A DNA stretch of 64,000 nucleotides from Candidatus Latescibacterota bacterium (lineage in GTDB: Bacteria; JAAXHH01): positions 1,447,330 to 1,511,329 of the forward strand of contig JAJEEG010000006.1 in the NCBI GenBank assembly GCA_022821085.1. The letters run 5' to 3'. This document shows, in pieces, positions 25,264 to 36,465 of this stretch. The stretch's first letter is position 1; each line of letters starts with the position of its first letter. A program made the translations under genes and the position numbers. The notes beneath the pieces are model-generated. The model ran no database searches, had not been told where the DNA came from, and saw nothing but the letters and a program-made list of their open reading frames with translations.

Positions 25264-26505
25264 ATGTCGGAATCCACCGTAGTACAACTCCCTGATCAAC
25301 CCGATCTGCGACACCTGAAAGACCAGGCGAAAGACCTGGTGCGGGACGGATCCTGCCCGACGCTGGCCGATGCGCTGTTCAACGTCGCGCGCCGGTACGG
25401 TTTCCCCAGTTGGCCGAAGTTGAAGGCCTACGTAGGGTCCGTCGGGTCCATGGGGGAGCTCGAACAGGCCATCCTCGAAGACGACGCCGGCAGGGTAAGT
25501 GGCCTGCTGGCCGATGATCCCGGCCTGGTACACCGTGAGGGGCACTGGACCAGGCGTCGCCGGCACAATGGGTACCGCCCGCTCGCCTATGCCGCGTTTT
25601 TCGGAAAGTCGAAGGTCATGGAAGTCCTGATCGCCGCCGGCGCGGATATACATGAAGGGGGCGAAAGGGCATTGCGGGCCGCGGCGTATTTTGACAAGAA
25701 CATGGGCGCCGTCGAACTGCTGCTCAGCCACGGCGCCGATCCGAATGCGACGACGATATCGCCCACCGGCCGACCTTACAGAGTAATCGACTATCCCTGC
25801 ATGACCCTGGCGTTCGGGATATTGCGACATCTCCTGTCGCATGGCGGCAGCCTGCTGCCGGAAAACGTGGGTATGATCCTGGCGACTAACGACCGAAGGC
25901 CCCAGGATAAGGCCGAGTGTCTACGCGTCATGGCGGTAGCGGGGTTCGAGTTGCCGGACATGCCGCCCATGGCCCTGCACCAGAGGGATACCCGGCTCCT
26001 GGAAGCCCACCTGCGCAGGGATCCCCTGATGACGTCGCGCCTGTTCTCGGAAAGGGACGTGTTCCCGTCCGGATTCGGCATAGAACTCCCTTCTCCTTAC
26101 GCCTGCGTGACCCCCCTGTCCGGCGGGGTGACCCTGCTTCACATGGCCGTCGAATTCTGCGACGTCGAGTTGGCCCGGTGGCTCCTCGAACGCGGCGCCG
26201 ACGTCAATGCCCCCGCGGGCACGGACCGGGACGGGTTCGGCGGCTGGACGCCCCTGTTTCATGCCATGGCCACGCTGCACGTACCGCGCCGTTTCCCCGA
26301 AATGGCAGAACTGCTTCTGGAACGCGGCGCCGACCCGGCGGTCAGGGCCTCCATAAGAAAGCCGGTCGCGGACGGCGGAGAGACGACCTGGAAAGACGTA
26401 ACGCCCGCGGATTACGCCCGGCAGTTCATTGAACCGGATCTTGTTAATCACGACGCGTTGCAGCGGGTATCGCAGGCAGTCGAGGCCGGTGACAGGGCCG
26501 ATTGA
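25264..26505 (+). CDS. Ankyrin-repeat protein with N-terminal QAK/GFPSW module
   Basis: 413-residue protein. The first 55 residues form a helical module (LPDQPDLRHLKDQAKDLV, ARRYGFPSWPKLKAYV) shared with the proteins at 26633 and 30535; this module is known at the N terminus of many bacterial ankyrin proteins, function unassigned. Ankyrin units follow: YRPLAYAAFFGKSKVMEVLI, GAVELLLSHGADPNATTIS, GVTLLHMAVEFCDVELARWL and MAELLLERGADPAVRAS. The ATG at 25264 has a strong AAGGAGG. The gene is back at the high GC of the chromosome, just right of the island. Confidence 0.88.
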   Translation: MSESTVVQLPDQPDLRHLKDQAKDLVRDGSCPTLADALFNVARRYGFPSWPKLKAYVGSVGSMGELEQAILEDDAGRVSGLLADDPGLVHREGHWTRRRRHNGYRPLAYAAFFGKSKVMEVLIAAGADIHEGGERALRAAAYFDKNMGAVELLLSHGADPNATTISPTGRPYRVIDYPCMTLAFGILRHLLSHGGSLLPENVGMILATNDRRPQDKAECLRVMAVAGFELPDMPPMALHQRDTRLLEAHLRRDPLMTSRLFSERDVFPSGFGIELPSPYACVTPLSGGVTLLHMAVEFCDVELARWLLERGADVNAPAGTDRDGFGGWTPLFHAMATLHVPRRFPEMAELLLERGADPAVRASIRKPVADGGETTWKDVTPADYARQFIEPDLVNHDALQRVSQAVEAGDRAD

Positions 26506-26632
26506 CGGGGGGACGATTGACGGGGCCGATTGACGTAGACGGCCCGTTTCCTGATTCAAACTCACGAAAGCTAACGATCCAGTGTCGATCAACATCGGAT
26601 ATGCCGCGGGTTCATTAGCACATAACGAGCAC

Positions 26633-28462
26633 ATGACAGCTACCCATGATTCTCCTTCCAGGTTCTGGCCCTTCCCGGTTGTTCAGGCTGAGATCGAGCA
26701 AGAAGCCCTGAACCTGTTCCAAGAGTATAGATCCGGCCGGGCCGGGGCCGTGACGGATGTCCGCCGTTATGGATCCCCCTCGGATCCTTCATCCTTCGAT
26801 ATACCTGATGCCCGGGACGTGTTGGCAAGGAGCTACGGGTTTCCGGGCTGGGCACAGGTGGAACGATACTTCCAAACGGTAGCAAACTTCTCGGGCAGTC
26901 CCAACGTGGAACAGGCGTCCCCGGTACGGCGTGGCCCAGTGGGACGCGCTGATGATTTCCTCCGCCTCGCCTGCCTGACCCAGGGCACCCAGGATCATCC
27001 ATCGAGATGGGCCAGGGCAAGGAACATACTGGATGTCCATCCGGAACTTTCCCGGACGAGCGTATATGCCGCCGCCGCGGCCGGTGACGTTTCAGCCGTG
27101 GGTGATTTCCTGAAAGCAAACCCTGACCTGGCGAAGACCCCGGGCGGACCCCATGACTGGGAACCGCTGCTTTACGTGGCGTTTTCGCGTCTGGACCATG
27201 GGACGACGGGACAAACGGCCGTCGAGATAATCCGATTGTTGCTTGCCCATGATGCCGACCCGAACGCGGGCTACCTCTGGGCCGGGTTCCCCTGTCCCTA
27301 CACCGTCCTTTCCGGCGTGTTCGGCGAAGGGGAAAACGGTCCCACCAGATGTCCCCCGCACCGGGACTGTTATGAGCTGGCCGGGATCCTGATCGAGGCC
27401 GGCGCCGATCCGAACGACGCGCAGACGCTCTACAACCGGATGTTCAGCCGCGACGACGAACACCTGCGGTTCCTGTTCGCGCGCGGACTTGGAAAGGAAG
27501 GGAACCGCCCCTGGCACCGTCTGCTGGGCGAGCAGTCAATCGGCTGGGTAGCCAGTCCGGTCGACATGCTGGCCTATCAACTGCAGTGGGCCGCCCGATG
27601 GAACTACCCCGATCGGGTCCGGTTGCTGATTGAAAACGGGGCCGACGTAAACCGGCCATCCAACCGGCCCGACGCGCGGACGCCCTACGGGGAAGCCATC
27701 TTTCACGGGAACGAGGCCATCGCCGAGTACCTGGCGGCTTGCGGCGCGGAGACGTTTCCGCTGGACGATTTTGACCAGTTTGCGGGCTCGTGCATCAGTG
27801 GCGACGGGGATCGTGCCCGCGCGTTGCTCGCACGCGAACCATCGCTGATTGAGAAACTGGGTGAACGCGGTGACGCGCTCATGGAGAACGCCGTAGGATC
27901 GAACAACCGGGACGCGGTCCGGCTGATGGCCGAACTGGGCTTCGACCTGAACGCCTGCGGTATGCACGATGCGGCCCGTTACGGCCACCTGGACATGGTT
28001 AAACTGCTGGTCGAGCTTGGGGCTGACCCTGCGTTGAAGGACTCGGGTCACGCGATCAGTGCGCTGGGTTACGCCAGCCACTACCTGCAGGACCAGGTGA
28101 TCGACTACCTGGCGCAGTTTGCCGGGATACACCGGGCCGTGCAGTCAGATTTGCTGGACCGCGTTCGGGAACTGCTGAAAGATGACCCTGCCTGCGCCAG
28201 TGAACGGGACGACGCGGGGAACACGCCGCTGCACTGTCTCCACGTGGACAACCGGATGGTAGCTACGGAGGAGATACTCCGGTTGCTGGTGACGCACGGC
28301 GCCGACGTCAATGCCAGGAATAAAGAAGGCCTGACGCCGCTCGACAGGCTGGAGCGTCTTTCCGGTTTTAGTCGAAGAGACGGCCTGGCGGAACGGCTGC
28401 GCGGGTACGGGGCCGTGGAATCAGCCGTAGCCGACGAGTCGAAGGACCGCCCGATATCCTGA
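26633..28462 (+). CDS. Large ankyrin-repeat protein with N-terminal GFPGW module
   Basis: 609-residue protein, longest of the ankyrin set. The N terminus has the shared helical module in diverged form (VQAEIEQEALNLFQEYRSG, RSYGFPGWAQVERYF). Ankyrin units follow, for example VSAVGDFLKANPDLAKTPGG, IIRLLLAHDADPNAGYLWAG, YGEAIFHGNEAIAEYLAACG, HDAARYGHLDMVKLLVELGA and GNTPLHCLHVDNRMVATEEI. A GTG at 26582 is an alternative start; neither start has a strong ribosome site, and I prefer ATG 26633. It lies 127 bases after the previous ankyrin gene, with a short GATTGACGGGG repeat in the gap. Confidence 0.85.
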   Translation: MTATHDSPSRFWPFPVVQAEIEQEALNLFQEYRSGRAGAVTDVRRYGSPSDPSSFDIPDARDVLARSYGFPGWAQVERYFQTVANFSGSPNVEQASPVRRGPVGRADDFLRLACLTQGTQDHPSRWARARNILDVHPELSRTSVYAAAAAGDVSAVGDFLKANPDLAKTPGGPHDWEPLLYVAFSRLDHGTTGQTAVEIIRLLLAHDADPNAGYLWAGFPCPYTVLSGVFGEGENGPTRCPPHRDCYELAGILIEAGADPNDAQTLYNRMFSRDDEHLRFLFARGLGKEGNRPWHRLLGEQSIGWVASPVDMLAYQLQWAARWNYPDRVRLLIENGADVNRPSNRPDARTPYGEAIFHGNEAIAEYLAACGAETFPLDDFDQFAGSCISGDGDRARALLAREPSLIEKLGERGDALMENAVGSNNRDAVRLMAELGFDLNACGMHDAARYGHLDMVKLLVELGADPALKDSGHAISALGYASHYLQDQVIDYLAQFAGIHRAVQSDLLDRVRELLKDDPACASERDDAGNTPLHCLHVDNRMVATEEILRLLVTHGADVNARNKEGLTPLDRLERLSGFSRRDGLAERLRGYGAVESAVADESKDRPIS

Positions 28463-30534: not shown

Positions 30535-32055
30535 ATGCCGTCCCTGCCTTCCCGTCCCGATATACGCCATCTCAGGCTGCAGGCGAAAACGCTGCTGAAG
30601 TCCGCGCGCAGCGGCGAAGAAGACGCCGTCGACAGGATCCGTTCGGCCACCGGCGCACGGCGCGACCGCGTCGTGCTGTCGGACGCCTATCACGCCATCG
30701 CCCTGGAACATGGGTTCAGGTCGTGGCCCCATCTCAAGATCCACCTCGAAATCGCCGCCGGGAACATGGACGAGAAACGGAAAATTTTCCTGTCCTCGGC
30801 CTGGATATGGGGCGATCGGAAACGCGCCGAGGCCGTGCTCGAGGCGGCACCGGAACTCACTCGGGGAGATATCCATGCCGCCTGTGCCGCCGGGGATCTG
30901 GATGCCGTTACAGACATCCTGGCGGCCGATCCCACCGCGGCCACGAAGGAGGGCGGCCCTAGAAACTGGACTCCGATCCTTCATGCGACATGGTCCTGCT
31001 TGCTGACCGAGCGTACCGACGCCATGGTCCGTATCCTTGAACTGCTCCTGCGGCACGGCGCCGATCCGGACAGCTACTGGGTGAACGATGACGACTGGAA
31101 GGAGTCGGCCCTTTACGGATGCGTGGAAAACAACTGCGTGCCGGCGGCACGGGTACTGGTGGACGCGGGCGCCGACCCTAACGACAACGAATCCCTGTAT
31201 CACGCATGCGAGAAGTTCAACCTCGAACTGCTGGACACGGTCGCGGCGAACGGGCTGGACGCGGAAGCCGTTTCCTACTGCATCAAGCACGTCATGGACA
31301 TGAACTGGACCGAGGGCATCCGGTGGTTTCTCGACCAGGGCGCCGATCCCGACGCCATCCACCCCGCCGACGGGGAAACGTCCCTGCACTGGGCCGTAAA
31401 GCGAAACAATACGGCCCTGGTGATCGGCGCGCTCCTCGAGGCCGGTGCGGACCCTGATGCCCGCACCTCGACCGGGAAGAGCACGGCGCTCGGGATCGTC
31501 GGCTCGACGCCGCTGGATTTCGCCCTGCGGCTCGGCCGCGGTGAAGTCGCGGCGCTCCTCAGGCGGCATGGCGCCGTGCCGTCCCCCATGTCCGAATACG
31601 ACCGCTTCGTAATCGCTTGCGCCAATGCGGACCTCGAAGTCGTGGAGCAGTTGAAAGACCGTCACCTGGCCGCCCTGACCGACGACGACCAAACCCTGAT
31701 CAGCCACGTGGCCCAGGTGGACAACTGGGCCGCGGTCCGTCTCATGGCGGACCTGGGATGGCCGGTAGACGCCCGGGGCTGGATGGAGGCAACGCCCCTC
31801 TACTGGGCCCTGTGCAAGGGAAATCCCGAAATGGTCGACTTCCTCCTCCGGCGGGACGCCTCCACCGAGCCTATCGGCGGGTATTTCCAGGATCCGATTC
31901 ACGCCGTGATGCACTGCCAGTGGAATGGGGACAAGGGCGGATACCCCGTCGCGCTCGGCTTGCTGCTCGACCACGGCCTGGCTGTCCCGGAAGGACGCTA
32001 TCCCAGCGGCAACGCCGCCATGGACACGGTGCTGTCGCGGTACATCGTGGACTGA
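30535..32055 (+). CDS. Ankyrin-repeat protein with N-terminal QAK/GFRSW module
   Basis: 506-residue protein starting at an ATG with AAGGAGG seven bases before it. The first 75 residues are the shared helical module (LPSRPDIRHLRLQAKTLLKS, AIALEHGFRSWPHLKIHLE). About ten ankyrin units follow, for example ILELLLRHGADPDSYWV, AARVLVDAGADPNDNESLYH, TSLHWAVKRNNTALVIGALL, STPLDFALRLGRGEVAALLR and ATPLYWALCKGNPEMVDFLL. No signal peptide. It is the last ankyrin gene in the window; none occurs after 32055. Confidence 0.88.
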   Translation: MPSLPSRPDIRHLRLQAKTLLKSARSGEEDAVDRIRSATGARRDRVVLSDAYHAIALEHGFRSWPHLKIHLEIAAGNMDEKRKIFLSSAWIWGDRKRAEAVLEAAPELTRGDIHAACAAGDLDAVTDILAADPTAATKEGGPRNWTPILHATWSCLLTERTDAMVRILELLLRHGADPDSYWVNDDDWKESALYGCVENNCVPAARVLVDAGADPNDNESLYHACEKFNLELLDTVAANGLDAEAVSYCIKHVMDMNWTEGIRWFLDQGADPDAIHPADGETSLHWAVKRNNTALVIGALLEAGADPDARTSTGKSTALGIVGSTPLDFALRLGRGEVAALLRRHGAVPSPMSEYDRFVIACANADLEVVEQLKDRHLAALTDDDQTLISHVAQVDNWAAVRLMADLGWPVDARGWMEATPLYWALCKGNPEMVDFLLRRDASTEPIGGYFQDPIHAVMHCQWNGDKGGYPVALGLLLDHGLAVPEGRYPSGNAAMDTVLSRYIVD

Positions 32056-32142
32056 GGGAGCCTTCGCGGGAACGCCTAAGGGCGCCAGCGGGTTCCTCGT
32101 CCGGAAACTGTGCTTCGACACAGACAAACGGTCACGGTCAAC

Positions 32143-32171
32143 TTGACAAACCATGGACGGGCCGGTATATA
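32143..32171 (+). promoter_or_regulatory. Sigma-70-like promoter for yggX and the radical SAM gene
   Basis: Perfect -35 TTGACA (32143-32148), exactly 17 bases, then TATATA (32166-32171). The predicted transcript would start near 32178, 70 bases before yggX. No other promoter-like site is seen before the radical SAM gene 47 bases after yggX, so both are probably on this transcript. Confidence 0.6.
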
Positions 32172-32247
32172 GCCTGTGAGGTAACGTACGCGATACCAAC
32201 CGGCCAAATGATCACCGAAGACTACGCCCGTAACGAGGAGGCCCGGC

Positions 32248-32523
32248 ATGGCCCGCATGGTCCACTGCGCCAAGCTCGAAGAGGAACTCGAAGGACTCGA
32301 CTTCGTCCCCTTCCCCAACGAACTCGGCCAGCGCATCTATGATAACATTTCCAAACAGGCCTGGCAGATGTGGATCAACTATTCGGTCATGGTGATTAAC
32401 GAATACCGCTTGAATCTCGCCACGACCGAGGGCCAGGAAGTCTATGACCGGCACCTGGAAGAGTTCTTCTTTGGCGAAGGCGCCGAAATGCCGCCGGGAT
32501 ACCGTCCCCCGCAGACGAAATAA
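32248..32523 (+). CDS. yggX: Probable Fe(2+)-trafficking protein YggX
   Basis: 91-residue protein matching YggX along its length: MARMVHCAKLEEELEGLDF, ELGQRIYDNISKQAWQMW, INEYRLNLATTEGQ and FFFGEGAEMPPGYRPP. The conserved Cys (residue 7) is present. In enterobacteria it is linked to oxidative-stress protection of Fe-S proteins and iron handling. The ATG at 32248 has GAGGAGG seven bases upstream. Its position just before a radical SAM (Fe-S) gene on the same transcript fits an iron-sulfur theme, though that link is inference. Confidence 0.95.
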   Translation: MARMVHCAKLEEELEGLDFVPFPNELGQRIYDNISKQAWQMWINYSVMVINEYRLNLATTEGQEVYDRHLEEFFFGEGAEMPPGYRPPQTK

Positions 32524-32570
32524 CCCGGCCGCAGCCATCACCGCCGCCATCGCCGTTCCCTGGATTCATC

Positions 32571-34034
32571 ATGAAGCGTGACGATGATATCCTGCTCATC
32601 TCCTGCTATGAACTGGGCCATCAGCCCTTCAGCCTGGCCTCTCCCGCCGCCCGCCTGAAATCCGAAGGATACAGCGTCTCAGTCGTCGATGCCGCGATCG
32701 AACCGGTCCCGGAGGATGTCGTTCGCCGGGCCGGCTTCATCGGCATCTCGGTGCCCATGCACACGGCCATGCGGGTCGGGATGGACCTGTCGCGCCGCAT
32801 CCGGAACCTCAATCCCGGCGCGCATCTTTGCTTCTACGGACTCTACGCCGCCCTGAACGCCGGGCATCTCATGTCCCATGGGGCCGACTCGGTGATCGGC
32901 GGCGAGTTCGAACAGCCGCTCTGCGACCTGGTCGGCAGGTTGTGCGACGGCGAACCGCCGGGTGTGGCCGGGGTGACCGCATCGGCCGGCGGTCCGCCAT
33001 CGGCCACGGATGCGACGATCACCACGAATCTCGCCCGCCAGGACTGGTTGGTCCCGGACCGTGACACGCTGCCCGGGCTGAAGCGGTACGCCCAGTTGGA
33101 CAATGGCCATGAATTACTTCCCGCTGGTTACACCGAGACCACCCGGGGCTGCCTGCATACCTGCCTGCACTGCCCGATCACGCCGGTGTACAACGGCCGG
33201 TTCTTCGCCGTGCCCGCCGACGTGGTGCTCGCCGACGTGGACCAGCAGGTGCGCATGGGGGCCCGGCACATCACCTTCGGGGATCCGGATTTCCTGAACG
33301 GCCCCACCCACGTCCTGCGCATACTCCGCAGGATGAGCGACGCCCACCCCGGTCTCACCTTCGATTTCACCACCAAGATCGAACACATCCTCCAACACGC
33401 ATCCTTTTTCTCCGAAGCCCGGGACCTGGGCGGCATTTTCGTCGTATCGGCCGTGGAATCGGTCAGCGACCTGGTGCTGGAGCGCCTTCGGAAAGGGCAC
33501 ACCCGCGATGACATCGTCCGGGCCCTCGCCATCCTGCGCGACGCGGACCTGCCCATGCGGCCCTCGCTGGTGGCCTTCACGCCCTGGGCGACCCTGGACG
33601 ACTACCTGGATCTGCTGGATTTCGTCGAAGTCCACGACCTGGTCGACCACATCGACCCGGTGCAGTACACCATCCGCCTGCTCGTACCACCGGGATCGGC
33701 CCTGCTGGCCGAAGCGGAAACCCGGTTATGGATCGGCGAGTTGGATGAAGCGGGATTCACCTACAACTGGCGCCATGACGATGCGCGCATGGACCGATTG
33801 CATCAACGGGTTTCCCATCTTGTGGAAGAGGCCGACGCGTCGGGGGAAGAAAGGGACAACCGGCGGGTGTTCCAGCGGATAAGGCGCCTGGCGGCGGGAA
33901 TGGCGGGCGTCGAGGCGCCCGTGGAACAGCCATTTCATGACCTCCCGCTCAAACGGCGGCGCGTCCCCAGGCTGACCGAGGCCTGGTTCTGCTGAGCGGA
34001 GCCCACGGCGAGCCGGAAAGGCTCGTTCATCTAA
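32571..34034 (+). CDS. CUAEP-tail radical SAM protein, likely selenoprotein (TGA at 33993 read as Sec)
   Basis: A 474-codon frame ends at TGA 33993-33995, but the context is EAWFC-TGA-AEP, and the frame continues AEPTASRKGSFI to TAA at 34032. Read as selenocysteine this gives 487 residues with Sec at 475 in a Cys-Sec-Ala-Glu-Pro tail. From memory, NCBI family models name a CUAEP/CCAEP-tail radical SAM (seleno)protein with this tail. Residues 1-140 form a B12-binding-like Rossmann domain without the DxHxxG cobalamin motif. The radical SAM cluster motif is CLHTCLHC (C194, C198, C201). A SECIS-like hairpin starts 13 bases after the TGA. The reaction is unknown. If the organism does not decode Sec, the protein ends at Cys474. 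Confidence 0.85.
34007..34027 (+). promoter_or_regulatory. SECIS-like hairpin after the TGA codon
   Basis: CGAGCC (34009-34014), loop GGAAA, GGCTCG (34020-34025) form a perfect 6-bp stem, extendable by two G-U pairs to 34007/34027. The first loop base, a G, is 19 bases after the TGA. As I recall, bacterial SECIS elements have a short apical loop with a G in the first two positions 16-37 bases after UGA, and this fits. Confidence 0.6.
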
Positions 34035-34067
34035 TCGCCGTCCAATCTATACTTCGTAAACACTGGC

Positions 34068-35267
34068 TCAGGAAGTGTATCCGTCCTGGCAGGGGCCGCA
34101 GTGCTGCGGCCGGGACGGCGCCCGGTACTGTACGCGGTGATCGGGCGTTTCGATGCGGATGCCGCCCCGCTGCTTTGACGTTAGGCAATGGTCGAGGATG
34201 CCGCAGACGGTCAGCGTCCGCTCCACGGGGATGGGAGAAACGCCGGTCTCGAACATCTCGTCGATCCGCGACACCAGGCAGGCCGAATAGGTGACCGGCG
34301 GCGTGGGCGGCAGGAAGAACTGGGTCGACTTCGGATCGGGTTCATCCTTCAGGCGGGCGGCGAAACAGTAGTCCCCGATAGCGCCGTTGAGCATGAGCAG
34401 CGTGGTTTTAAGTCCATCCACGTGTTCGATGAAGTAGGCGGCCGGCTCAGCGGCGAGACGATGCAACTCGCCCGTGCCCAGCAGGTCCTGGGTACGGCCG
34501 TCCTTTTCGGTCGGCCCCTTCGGACTGTCGCAGCGGGAAAGCGCCGACTCCAGTAATTCCTTCGAATAGCGTCCCTGCTCTCCAGCTTTCCACACGGCGT
34601 CGCCCACGATCGTTTGCACCGCTTTGACCCCGGTCTCTCCGCCCCGGCGACGCTCGATCATGCACTGCATGGCTTCGAGGGCGTGGTAATCCATGGCGTC
34701 CGAACCGCCGACGCCGACCATCAACGCTTCCTCGATATCACATTCCAGCGGGAGTTCGAGGTCAGGAAGCCGCCAAGTGACCGGCAGGCTCGATCCGGCG
34801 AGCACGGGGAAACCGAGCCGCTTCGAATCGGCCACCATCTCCAGGCCCCTGTCGAAGCTGTAGGAGAGGTTCTTGTCGTTGTAGACCGGCACCGCGCGAC
34901 CGTCCTGTTCGAACACCTCGACGCAGGCCTTGAACATCTCGTAGCGTGGATAGAGTTTCTGACCTTTTTCATTGTTCGGATAGTCGCCGTGTTCGCAGAT
35001 GATCAGGATCCCGTCCACCGCCAGGGCATCCCCGCCGCACCGCAGCGCTTCGGCAATGGTGGGATAGACATCGAAACCGAACTCGCGGGCGCGGTCGGTG
35101 CTTTGGTCGCCTTCGGGCCGCTGGTCGACGTACAGCGACACCACTTCCACGTCCGGCCGGTGCCAGCGGCCGGACCGCGGATAGCCCACGAGGAACCGGT
35201 CCGCGAAATGCTGCGTGTGGGAGAGATAGGTGTAGATGGAACTGATGACGGCGAGCCGTTTGGGCAT
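34068..35267 (-). CDS. Uncharacterised conserved protein, paralogue B
   Basis: 399-residue soluble protein that shares its whole architecture with the gene just upstream (35272-36465). Shared blocks: SHTQHFADRFLVGY, VEVVSLYVDQ, YPTIAEALRCGG, VDGILIICEHGDYP, EKGQKLYPRYEMF, PVYNDKNLSYSFD, AGSSLPVTWR and DYHALEAMQCMIERRRGGET. I recall these blocks from unannotated proteins near Gfo/Idh/MocA genes in Latescibacteria and planctomycetes, but know no function. The invariant His, Glu, Asp and Arg suggest an enzyme. ATG 35267 lies four bases after the upstream stop. The C terminus here ends in a Cys-containing tail (PQHCGPCQDG). Confidence 0.78.
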   Translation of the reverse strand: MPKRLAVISSIYTYLSHTQHFADRFLVGYPRSGRWHRPDVEVVSLYVDQRPEGDQSTDRAREFGFDVYPTIAEALRCGGDALAVDGILIICEHGDYPNNEKGQKLYPRYEMFKACVEVFEQDGRAVPVYNDKNLSYSFDRGLEMVADSKRLGFPVLAGSSLPVTWRLPDLELPLECDIEEALMVGVGGSDAMDYHALEAMQCMIERRRGGETGVKAVQTIVGDAVWKAGEQGRYSKELLESALSRCDSPKGPTEKDGRTQDLLGTGELHRLAAEPAAYFIEHVDGLKTTLLMLNGAIGDYCFAARLKDEPDPKSTQFFLPPTPPVTYSACLVSRIDEMFETGVSPIPVERTLTVCGILDHCLTSKQRGGIRIETPDHRVQYRAPSRPQHCGPCQDGYTS

Positions 35268-35271
35268 GGTG

Positions 35272-36465
35272 TCAGTATCTCCAGAACGTGGAGTTTTCGG
35301 GCGCCGGGTAGGCAACGTCGAGATGGGGCGTTTCGAGGCAAACCTGTCCGTCGTACAGGCTGTCGACCCCCGCCGCGGTGAGGCCCGTCGTCAGCAGGGT
35401 CCGTTCCACGGGATAGGCGGCCTCGCCGGTGAGGAACATCTGCTCCACGTTGTTGACCTGCGGCGAGAAGAAGTTGGCCAGCGAGGTGCGCGCGGGCGGC
35501 ATGGGCAGGTACATCTGTGTCGACAGCGGCTCGCTCCGCCCCGAGAGGCGCGCCGCGAAGTTGAAGTCCTCCACCAGCCCGTTGAAGAGGATCATGGTGC
35601 ACCTGAGCCCGTCCCGATGCTCGTAGGTATAGGCCACCGGATCTTCCACCATCCGCTTCATCTCGTTAATGGTCGGGAAGATATGGTTGAAGCCGTCGCG
35701 GGAGGGCTTCAGGGTATGGCTGCGGCAGAGCGCCGCTTCGAAGAGTTCGCGGGACCACACTTCGTCATGGCAGGCTTCCCAGAAGGCCTCACCGCGCCGG
35801 GCGTGGAGCCAGGCCACGCCCGTCTCGCCGCCGTTGCGCCGCTCGACCATGCACTGCAGGGTTTCCAGGCCGTGAAAGTCGTAGCTGTCGACCCCGCCGT
35901 AGCACACGCACACGGCCTCTTCCACCTCGGCGTGCAGCGGCATGTCGACCGAGGGTGTCCGCCAGGTGACCGGCAGGCTGGACCCCGCCATGAAGGCGAA
36001 CCCCAGCCGCCGTGAGGTATCGTACATCTCCCTGGCCCAGTCCCAGTTCCACGACAGGTGTTTGTCGTTGAAGATCGGCGCGGACCGGCCGCTGGCCTCG
36101 TAGACCTCCACGATCTCGCGGAACAGTTCGTAGCGCGGATAGAGCCGCTGCCCTTTTTCGTTGGTCGGATACTCGCCGTGCTCGCCCACCAGGAGGACGC
36201 CGTCCACCTGCAGCGAATCCCCGCCCAGGGTGAGGGCGTCGGCGACCGTGGGGTATATCTTCATCCCGGGGAAACGTGCAGCCCGGTCCCTGCTGAGATC
36301 GTTCTCGCGCACCTGGTCCACGTACAGGGAAACCAAGTCCATGGGCGGGTGGTGGTGCCGTCCGGCCCAGCCGTACCCCTCCAGGAAGCGGTCCACGATA
36401 TGCTGGGTGTGGGCGTAGGGGTGGTAGATGGTCGTGATCGCGGCGATCTTCGGTCGGTTGGGCAT
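35272..36465 (-). CDS. Uncharacterised conserved protein, paralogue A
   Basis: 397-residue paralogue of the following gene, with matching blocks (AHTQHIVDRFLEGYGWAG, DLVSLYVDQVRENDL, VDGVLLVGEHGEYP, EKGQRLYPRYELF, PIFNDKHLSWNWD, AGSSLPVTWRTPSVDMPL, DFHGLETLQCMVERRNGGET). The N-terminal strand KIAAITTIYHP starts like a Rossmann fold but lacks GxGxxG. No signal peptide. It follows the SPFH gene by nine bases and precedes paralogue B by four, so all are likely one transcript. Tandem duplication followed by divergence is the simplest history. Confidence 0.78.
   Translation of the reverse strand: MPNRPKIAAITTIYHPYAHTQHIVDRFLEGYGWAGRHHHPPMDLVSLYVDQVRENDLSRDRAARFPGMKIYPTVADALTLGGDSLQVDGVLLVGEHGEYPTNEKGQRLYPRYELFREIVEVYEASGRSAPIFNDKHLSWNWDWAREMYDTSRRLGFAFMAGSSLPVTWRTPSVDMPLHAEVEEAVCVCYGGVDSYDFHGLETLQCMVERRNGGETGVAWLHARRGEAFWEACHDEVWSRELFEAALCRSHTLKPSRDGFNHIFPTINEMKRMVEDPVAYTYEHRDGLRCTMILFNGLVEDFNFAARLSGRSEPLSTQMYLPMPPARTSLANFFSPQVNNVEQMFLTGEAAYPVERTLLTTGLTAAGVDSLYDGQVCLETPHLDVAYPAPENSTFWRY

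Follow-up and report, generated by a model that had tools for sequence, protein, structure and literature searches.

The window analysed here, a stretch of 64,000 nucleotides from a Candidatus Latescibacterota bacterium, carries on its forward strand a yggX gene followed by a gene for a radical SAM protein whose reading frame contains a TGA codon close to its end (Table 1). The frame opens with the ATG at 32571 and reads ...PRLTEAWFC-TGA-AEPTASRKGSFI-TAA: the TGA directly follows the Cys codon of ...EAWFC, and behind it come GCG GAG CCC (Ala-Glu-Pro), nine further residues (TASRKGSFI) and the TAA at 34032-34034. The same coordinates had been given in an earlier, sequence-only reading of the locus, in which the TGA was taken to encode selenocysteine (Sec) within a CUAEP tail. 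A gene caller halting at the TGA yields 474 residues, against 487 for the full product. As to the surroundings, three ankyrin-repeat genes lie within 7 kb upstream of yggX (25264-26505, 26582-28462 and 30535-32055, forward strand), and two tandem paralogues of about 400 residues each are found on the reverse strand (34068-35315 and 35272-36465); they cross-match at about 72% nucleotide identity over 454 columns, and neither has a Pfam or NCBIfam match.

Table 1. Features of the yggX and radical SAM locus (positions in the window).
Feature	Position	Strand	Description
yggX	32248..32523	+	PF04362, Fe(II) trafficking / oxidative damage protection; ends 47 nt upstream of the enzyme gene
CUAEP-tail radical SAM selenoprotein gene	32571..34034	+	487 aa with TGA read as Sec; NF040546 match
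B12-binding-like N-terminal domain	32595..32930	+	Residues 9-120; PF02310, 32.7 bits (cut-off 32.1)
Radical SAM core	33135..33554	+	Residues 189-328; PF04055, E 1.3e-12
CLHTCLHC (CxxxCxxC), putative [4Fe-4S] motif	33150..33173	+	Residues 194-201
W-F-C-U-A-E-P tail motif	33984..34004	+	Residues 472-478; homologue comparison
TGA codon, predicted Sec residue 475	33993..33995	+	Frame and homologue comparison
Predicted bacterial SECIS hairpin	34008..34026	+	7-bp stem 34008-34014 / 34020-34026; apical loop GGAAA 34015-34019

The three Cys residues of the CxxxCxxC motif (C194, C198 and C201) are invariant across 69 aligned sequences. The predicted two-domain architecture is supported by the AlphaFold model (mean pLDDT 89.5, with block means of 82, 65 and 42 from residue 461 on), whose fold matches AprD4 (TM 0.67-0.72), OxsB, TsrM and MgmA; OxsB and TsrM, which rank after AprD4 among the matches to this B12-binding-like radical SAM protein, are cobalamin enzymes. 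A sequence search of the PDB with the product returned distant radical SAM enzymes only. The NCBI family to which the sequence-only reading had pointed does exist: it is NF040546, 'CUAEP/CCAEP-tail radical SAM (seleno)protein', which the product matches far above the cut-off (688.8 bits against 500) over positions 1-465 of the 468 of the profile.

To read the TGA in its evolutionary context, we searched contigs of GTDB genomes using an alignment of the family and kept the best 80 of at least 520 loci. Among the 79 homologues read from these, the codon at position 475 is TGA in 55, TGC in 15 and TGT in 9. Ala-Glu follows it in all 79, a count to be read with the fact that the search pattern required Ala-Glu, and C474, position 475 (C or U) and A476-E477-P478 are invariant in the 69 homologues that were aligned. 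Since one of the two search peptides used for the locus scan covers the tail, homology is carried by the second peptide and the family model, and not by the tail alone. On a tree of Sec and Cys forms, six switches are needed, at least three of them forced by well-supported branches, so that Sec and Cys replace one another at this position. In addition, an independent search with the NCBI model gave 15 relatives with matches above the cut-off, each containing exactly one internal TGA.

The first alternative to be weighed takes the TGA as an ordinary stop, with the protein ending at Cys474 and the AEP tail a chance occurrence or a relic. A default caller does produce a TGA-terminated frame, a Thermomicrobium roseum record is annotated in this way, and the protein cut at the TGA keeps 669.8 bits to NF040546. 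However, AEP is conserved behind TGA and Cys codons alike; as to homologues ending at the Cys without AEP, a point raised by the sequence-only reading, the tail is kept whether Cys or Sec precedes it. Comparison within the genus points the same way: in 11 genomes, the commonest base averages 98% per column from the TGA through position +39, against 92% in the 60 nucleotides before the TGA and 53% after the terminal stop. An ordinary stop is also at odds with the presence of Sec genes in the genome and with a covarying hairpin that is retained in TGA forms only, both described below, and we consider it very improbable.

This hairpin, situated 19 nucleotides from the TGA (counted to its loop), agrees with the published model of bacterial SECIS elements, namely a loop of 3-9 nt, a stem of 4-16 bp, a G in the first two loop positions, a spacing of 16-37 nt and an energy of at most -7.5 kcal/mol (PMC13188914): its loop has 5 nt and begins with G, its stem has 7 bp, and its spacing falls within the range. 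A congener with an identical hairpin folds at -13.3 kcal/mol. Folded alone, the hairpin of the window is ordinary for its composition (z -0.64), and a scan of the window at Rfam gathering thresholds gave no match. Because single-sequence folding is uninformative here, TGA and Cys homologues were compared instead, and the case for the hairpin rests on covariation. Over 39 nt downstream of the codon, the mean folding energy is -13.2 kcal/mol in TGA forms (n = 54) versus -7.0 in Cys forms (n = 24), with p = 4e-8 on z-scores, a value that is optimistic since related sequences were counted separately. In 40 TGA homologues, two-sided changes are seen in six of the seven pairs, 87% of the cells are paired, and none of 500 shuffles attains the covariation score; only 52% of the hairpin cells are paired in the 24 Cys homologues. 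The alignment thus holds a built-in control, in that the predicted hairpin decays where the codon is Cys.

The host genome, a draft assembly of 3.75 Mb in 7 contigs (96% complete), encodes the machinery that the sequence-only reading had named for verification: selA, selB, selD and tRNA-Sec were all found (485, 347, 250 and 70.6 bits, respectively), the tRNA, with anticodon UCA, lying 40 nt from the selB match. Two weaker matches, selA-like (172 bits, G000:C6:57728-59113) and selD-like (100 bits, C6:55784-56545), stand close together on contig C6 and score below the cut-offs. Among the 50 genomes behind the loci, SelB scores above its cut-off in 24 of 26 TGA genomes, versus 12 of 24 Cys genomes (p = 0.0013); both exceptions on the TGA side, behind loci L057 and L109, are draft genomes.

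These data also bear on a second alternative, in which UGA is read through or reassigned by a system other than that of Sec, for instance as Trp or Cys. The frame does stay open past the TGA, but within the genus the same gene terminates with TGA in some species and with TAA in others; moreover, the genome has selA, selB, selD and tRNA-Sec(UCA), and a SECIS lies downstream. Such a reassignment is barely credible to us. We conclude that the TGA at 33993 is almost certainly decoded as Sec, a reading for which sequence alone could hardly give better support. The proposal of the sequence-only reading is thus borne out by the exchange of Sec and Cys, the covarying SECIS and the Sec machinery. Its prediction that an ordinary caller would truncate the protein at the TGA also proved right: the plasmid-collection record of T. 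roseum (NC_011961.1, L137:5935-7371), annotated 'CUAEP/CCAEP-tail radical SAM protein', stops at the TGA, so that the listed protein is devoid of the tail that gives it its name. The gene is likely to be mis-annotated in this way wherever TGA is taken as a stop.

The gene neighbourhood is recurrent as well. Adjacency to yggX is found in 33 of the best 80 of the at least 520 loci, in the lineage of the window and in Chloroflexota. The sequence-only reading had the two genes share a promoter; same strand and conserved adjacency hold, and extend to other phyla, but the promoter itself was not seen, a scan of 32000-34200 giving no promoter-like site on the forward strand. Profiles of neighbour families were then run over the 79 loci, and the families counted within 4 kb of the enzyme gene were YggX (32 loci), LAL-type ATP-grasp ligase (26), formyltransferase-like protein (22), Nfu-type Fe-S carrier (15) and DUF169 (12); these counts lean upward because the profiles were built from the same loci, an effect that touches less the contrast with the region beyond 4 kb, where each family is found once or not at all. 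Families on the opposite strand that came from greedy ORF calling in GC-rich loci were judged spurious and left out.

In 59 of the 79 loci, YggX, Nfu or DUF169 is found no more than 4 kb from the enzyme gene, and no locus has two of them; each lineage uses one of these alternating helpers, NfuA among them. A different gene order is seen in some Chloroflexota, where the ligase follows the enzyme and YggX comes next, facing both, so the linkage of the module survives rearrangement. At the level of whole genomes, a high-scoring YggX is present in 23 of 38 Chloroflexota genomes with the enzyme versus 1 of 113 without it (p = 4e-16). Some variants of these neighbours were also seen. YggX occurs as a fused double domain, two copies in one frame (L060:977-1636), a form that also precedes the enzyme gene in L078 and L089; in another Chloroflexota locus (L145, G244:C1:154000-159000), a double YggX stands beside the ATP-grasp gene of the module, and no enzyme gene was detected. 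The formyltransferase-like gene (for example L086:8384-9379, reverse strand, with similar genes in 22 loci) is divergent from yggX and scores 146 bits, under the canonical Fmt cut-off of 201.5 bits.

The strongest association is with the ligase. The enzyme gene is present in 38 of 151 sampled Chloroflexota genomes, and an ATP-grasp gene of the L-amino-acid-ligase type in all 38 of these, against 2 of 24 genomes without the enzyme (p = 8e-15, inflated because the genomes are related, the 24 having moreover been hand-picked, many for some YggX match). In the host genome, the single ligase of this type is unlinked (contig C2, 240555-241940) and shows 47-48% identity to the best linked ligases. 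A sister species (G001) is without the enzyme gene: the segment from yggX to the downstream gene, corresponding to 32532-34067 of the window, is missing, while the flanks align at 87-91%. Its unlinked ligase gene is broken, an internal stretch being gone and the frame changed, and YggX is retained. This looks like the joint loss of one pathway, as read from a single case in an assembled genome. Two other relatives, both incomplete, fit this picture less well: in G015 the ligase is present but the enzyme is not, and in G009, which has the enzyme, no ligase was detected. As judged from these comparisons, the enzyme gene belongs to a conserved module with an ATP-grasp ligase and an iron or Fe-S helper. 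Taken jointly, Sec decoding, family assignment and partner genes, leaving the chemistry aside, form a reading in which we have high confidence.

How might such a module work? SelB-dependent decoding of the UGA, steered by the hairpin, would insert Sec475 beside Cys474 and complete the C-terminal C-U-A-E-P tail of a radical SAM enzyme whose Rossmann domain is B12-binding-like. Kinship with ArsL, common motifs, a Cys-Cys end and clusters carrying an ATP-grasp gene lead us to propose an ArsL-like reaction: the enzyme would cleave SAM and transfer a SAM-derived group (3-amino-3-carboxypropyl, or adenosyl) to a soft atom of thiophilic character that the Cys-Sec pair holds, the ATP-grasp ligase would couple the amino-acid-like product to another molecule, and YggX or NfuA would supply or repair iron or Fe-S. 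We put this chemistry forward tentatively, as an analogy that may well fail; three facts count against it, namely that the tail motif is common to ArsL only across a 48-residue alignment gap, that the ATP-grasp of ArsL clusters is only distant kin, and that the 25 commonest families of downstream neighbours include no arsenic families. An arsenic pathway was considered; in view of this last result, arsenic is not favoured as the atom.

Two other chemistries are considered. Adjacent Cys and Sec residues are a common redox motif, and the tail may be a flexible redox arm, the Cys-Sec pair reducing a disulfide, an oxidised metalloid or the enzyme's own product, next to ordinary radical chemistry (a 5'-deoxyadenosyl radical, or methylation with cobalamin). 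The lower pLDDT of the tail is consistent with such an arm, as are fold matches (AprD4, OxsB, TsrM and MgmA) that are not known to form carbon-metalloid bonds. However, the fixed AEP and PRLTExWF context suggests a packed segment and not a free arm, and a Cys-Cys pair is likewise retained at this end of ArsL; we regard the redox arm as rather unlikely.

Alternatively, the Cys-Sec tail may be a ligand to a second, labile site of iron or Fe-S, which turnover would consume or damage and NfuA or YggX would restore, the reaction then being an insertion of sulfur or selenium and not a transfer of the ArsL type. NfuA rebuilds the sacrificed cluster of lipoyl synthase, and published papers tie Nfu proteins to the auxiliary cluster of that enzyme; the mutually exclusive presence of YggX, Nfu or DUF169 beside most copies of the gene would also fit. 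Yet the invariant Cys residues in the 69 sequences are limited to the three of CxxxCxxC, C474 and C/U475, which are few for a second cluster, and ArsL, the closest relative, is thought to have one cluster (PMC8552651). This scenario seems to us distinctly unlikely.

Returning to the ArsL-like proposal, its wider form would be a pathway, present in about ten phyla, in which an enzyme of the ArsL lineage with Sec (or Cys) makes, on its Cys-Sec tail, an amino acid with a carbon-metalloid (or carbon-selenium, or carbon-sulfur) bond, which the ATP-grasp ligase then couples, with YggX, NfuA and DUF169 as interchangeable helpers. This broader picture is possible but doubtful; if true, the pathway would yield an organometalloid or metal-binding peptide of a new kind, and if the parallel with ArsL holds, the role of selenocysteine would be to hold a soft atom while radical chemistry forms a bond to it. 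Whichever chemistry applies, the family is widespread, with loci from about ten phyla and a quarter or so of the sampled Chloroflexota genomes, and the co-occurrence of the ligase, the alternation of helpers and the co-loss in G001 define a candidate pathway whose first reaction can be tested.

With respect to known systems, the family itself is already on record as an NCBI model whose name says (seleno)protein, and the window protein does not differ from it, matching the model over its full length and carrying the same C-(U/C)-A-E-P tail. What is new here is the conserved module and the apparent co-loss. Our search of the open-licence literature found no paper on the NF040546 family or its chemistry, and the family is absent from the table of a 2026 inventory of 119 selenoprotein families (PMC13188914). 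ArsS-type proteins (TIGR04167) and TrsS (NF045646) are also radical SAM proteins with Sec (PMC13188914); they are other families, and neither model matches the product at E values up to 0.001. The radical SAM diol dehydratase AprD4 (PDB 6fd2), the best match among solved folds, has a similar two-domain body, but its identity to the product is 17-18%, and the product scores 18.8 bits against the AprD4 model (cut-off 500).

The nearest known relative is ArsL, an enzyme of arsinothricin biosynthesis that is proposed to move the aminocarboxypropyl group from SAM onto arsenite (PMC8552651). Its model, NF040542, is the second best for the product, at 321.4 bits under a cut-off of 450, and the product is thus not a member. 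ArsL is about 48 residues shorter before the tail, which reads RCCLKC instead of FCUAEP, and its clusters hold arsM or arsR-type genes, which are not among the common downstream neighbours of the CUAEP-tail gene. Of the plasmid ArsL clusters that we read, all three contain an ATP-grasp gene, like the CUAEP-tail module, and two contain arsM; the ATP-grasp proteins of the two systems are distantly related (21-28% identity). Over the core, ArsL and the product are 36% identical, with CxxxCxxC and the PW and DP(V/I)Q motifs in common, and both end in a Cys-Cys or Cys-Sec pair, the CC of RCCLKC aligning with the CU of FCUAEP across the gap.
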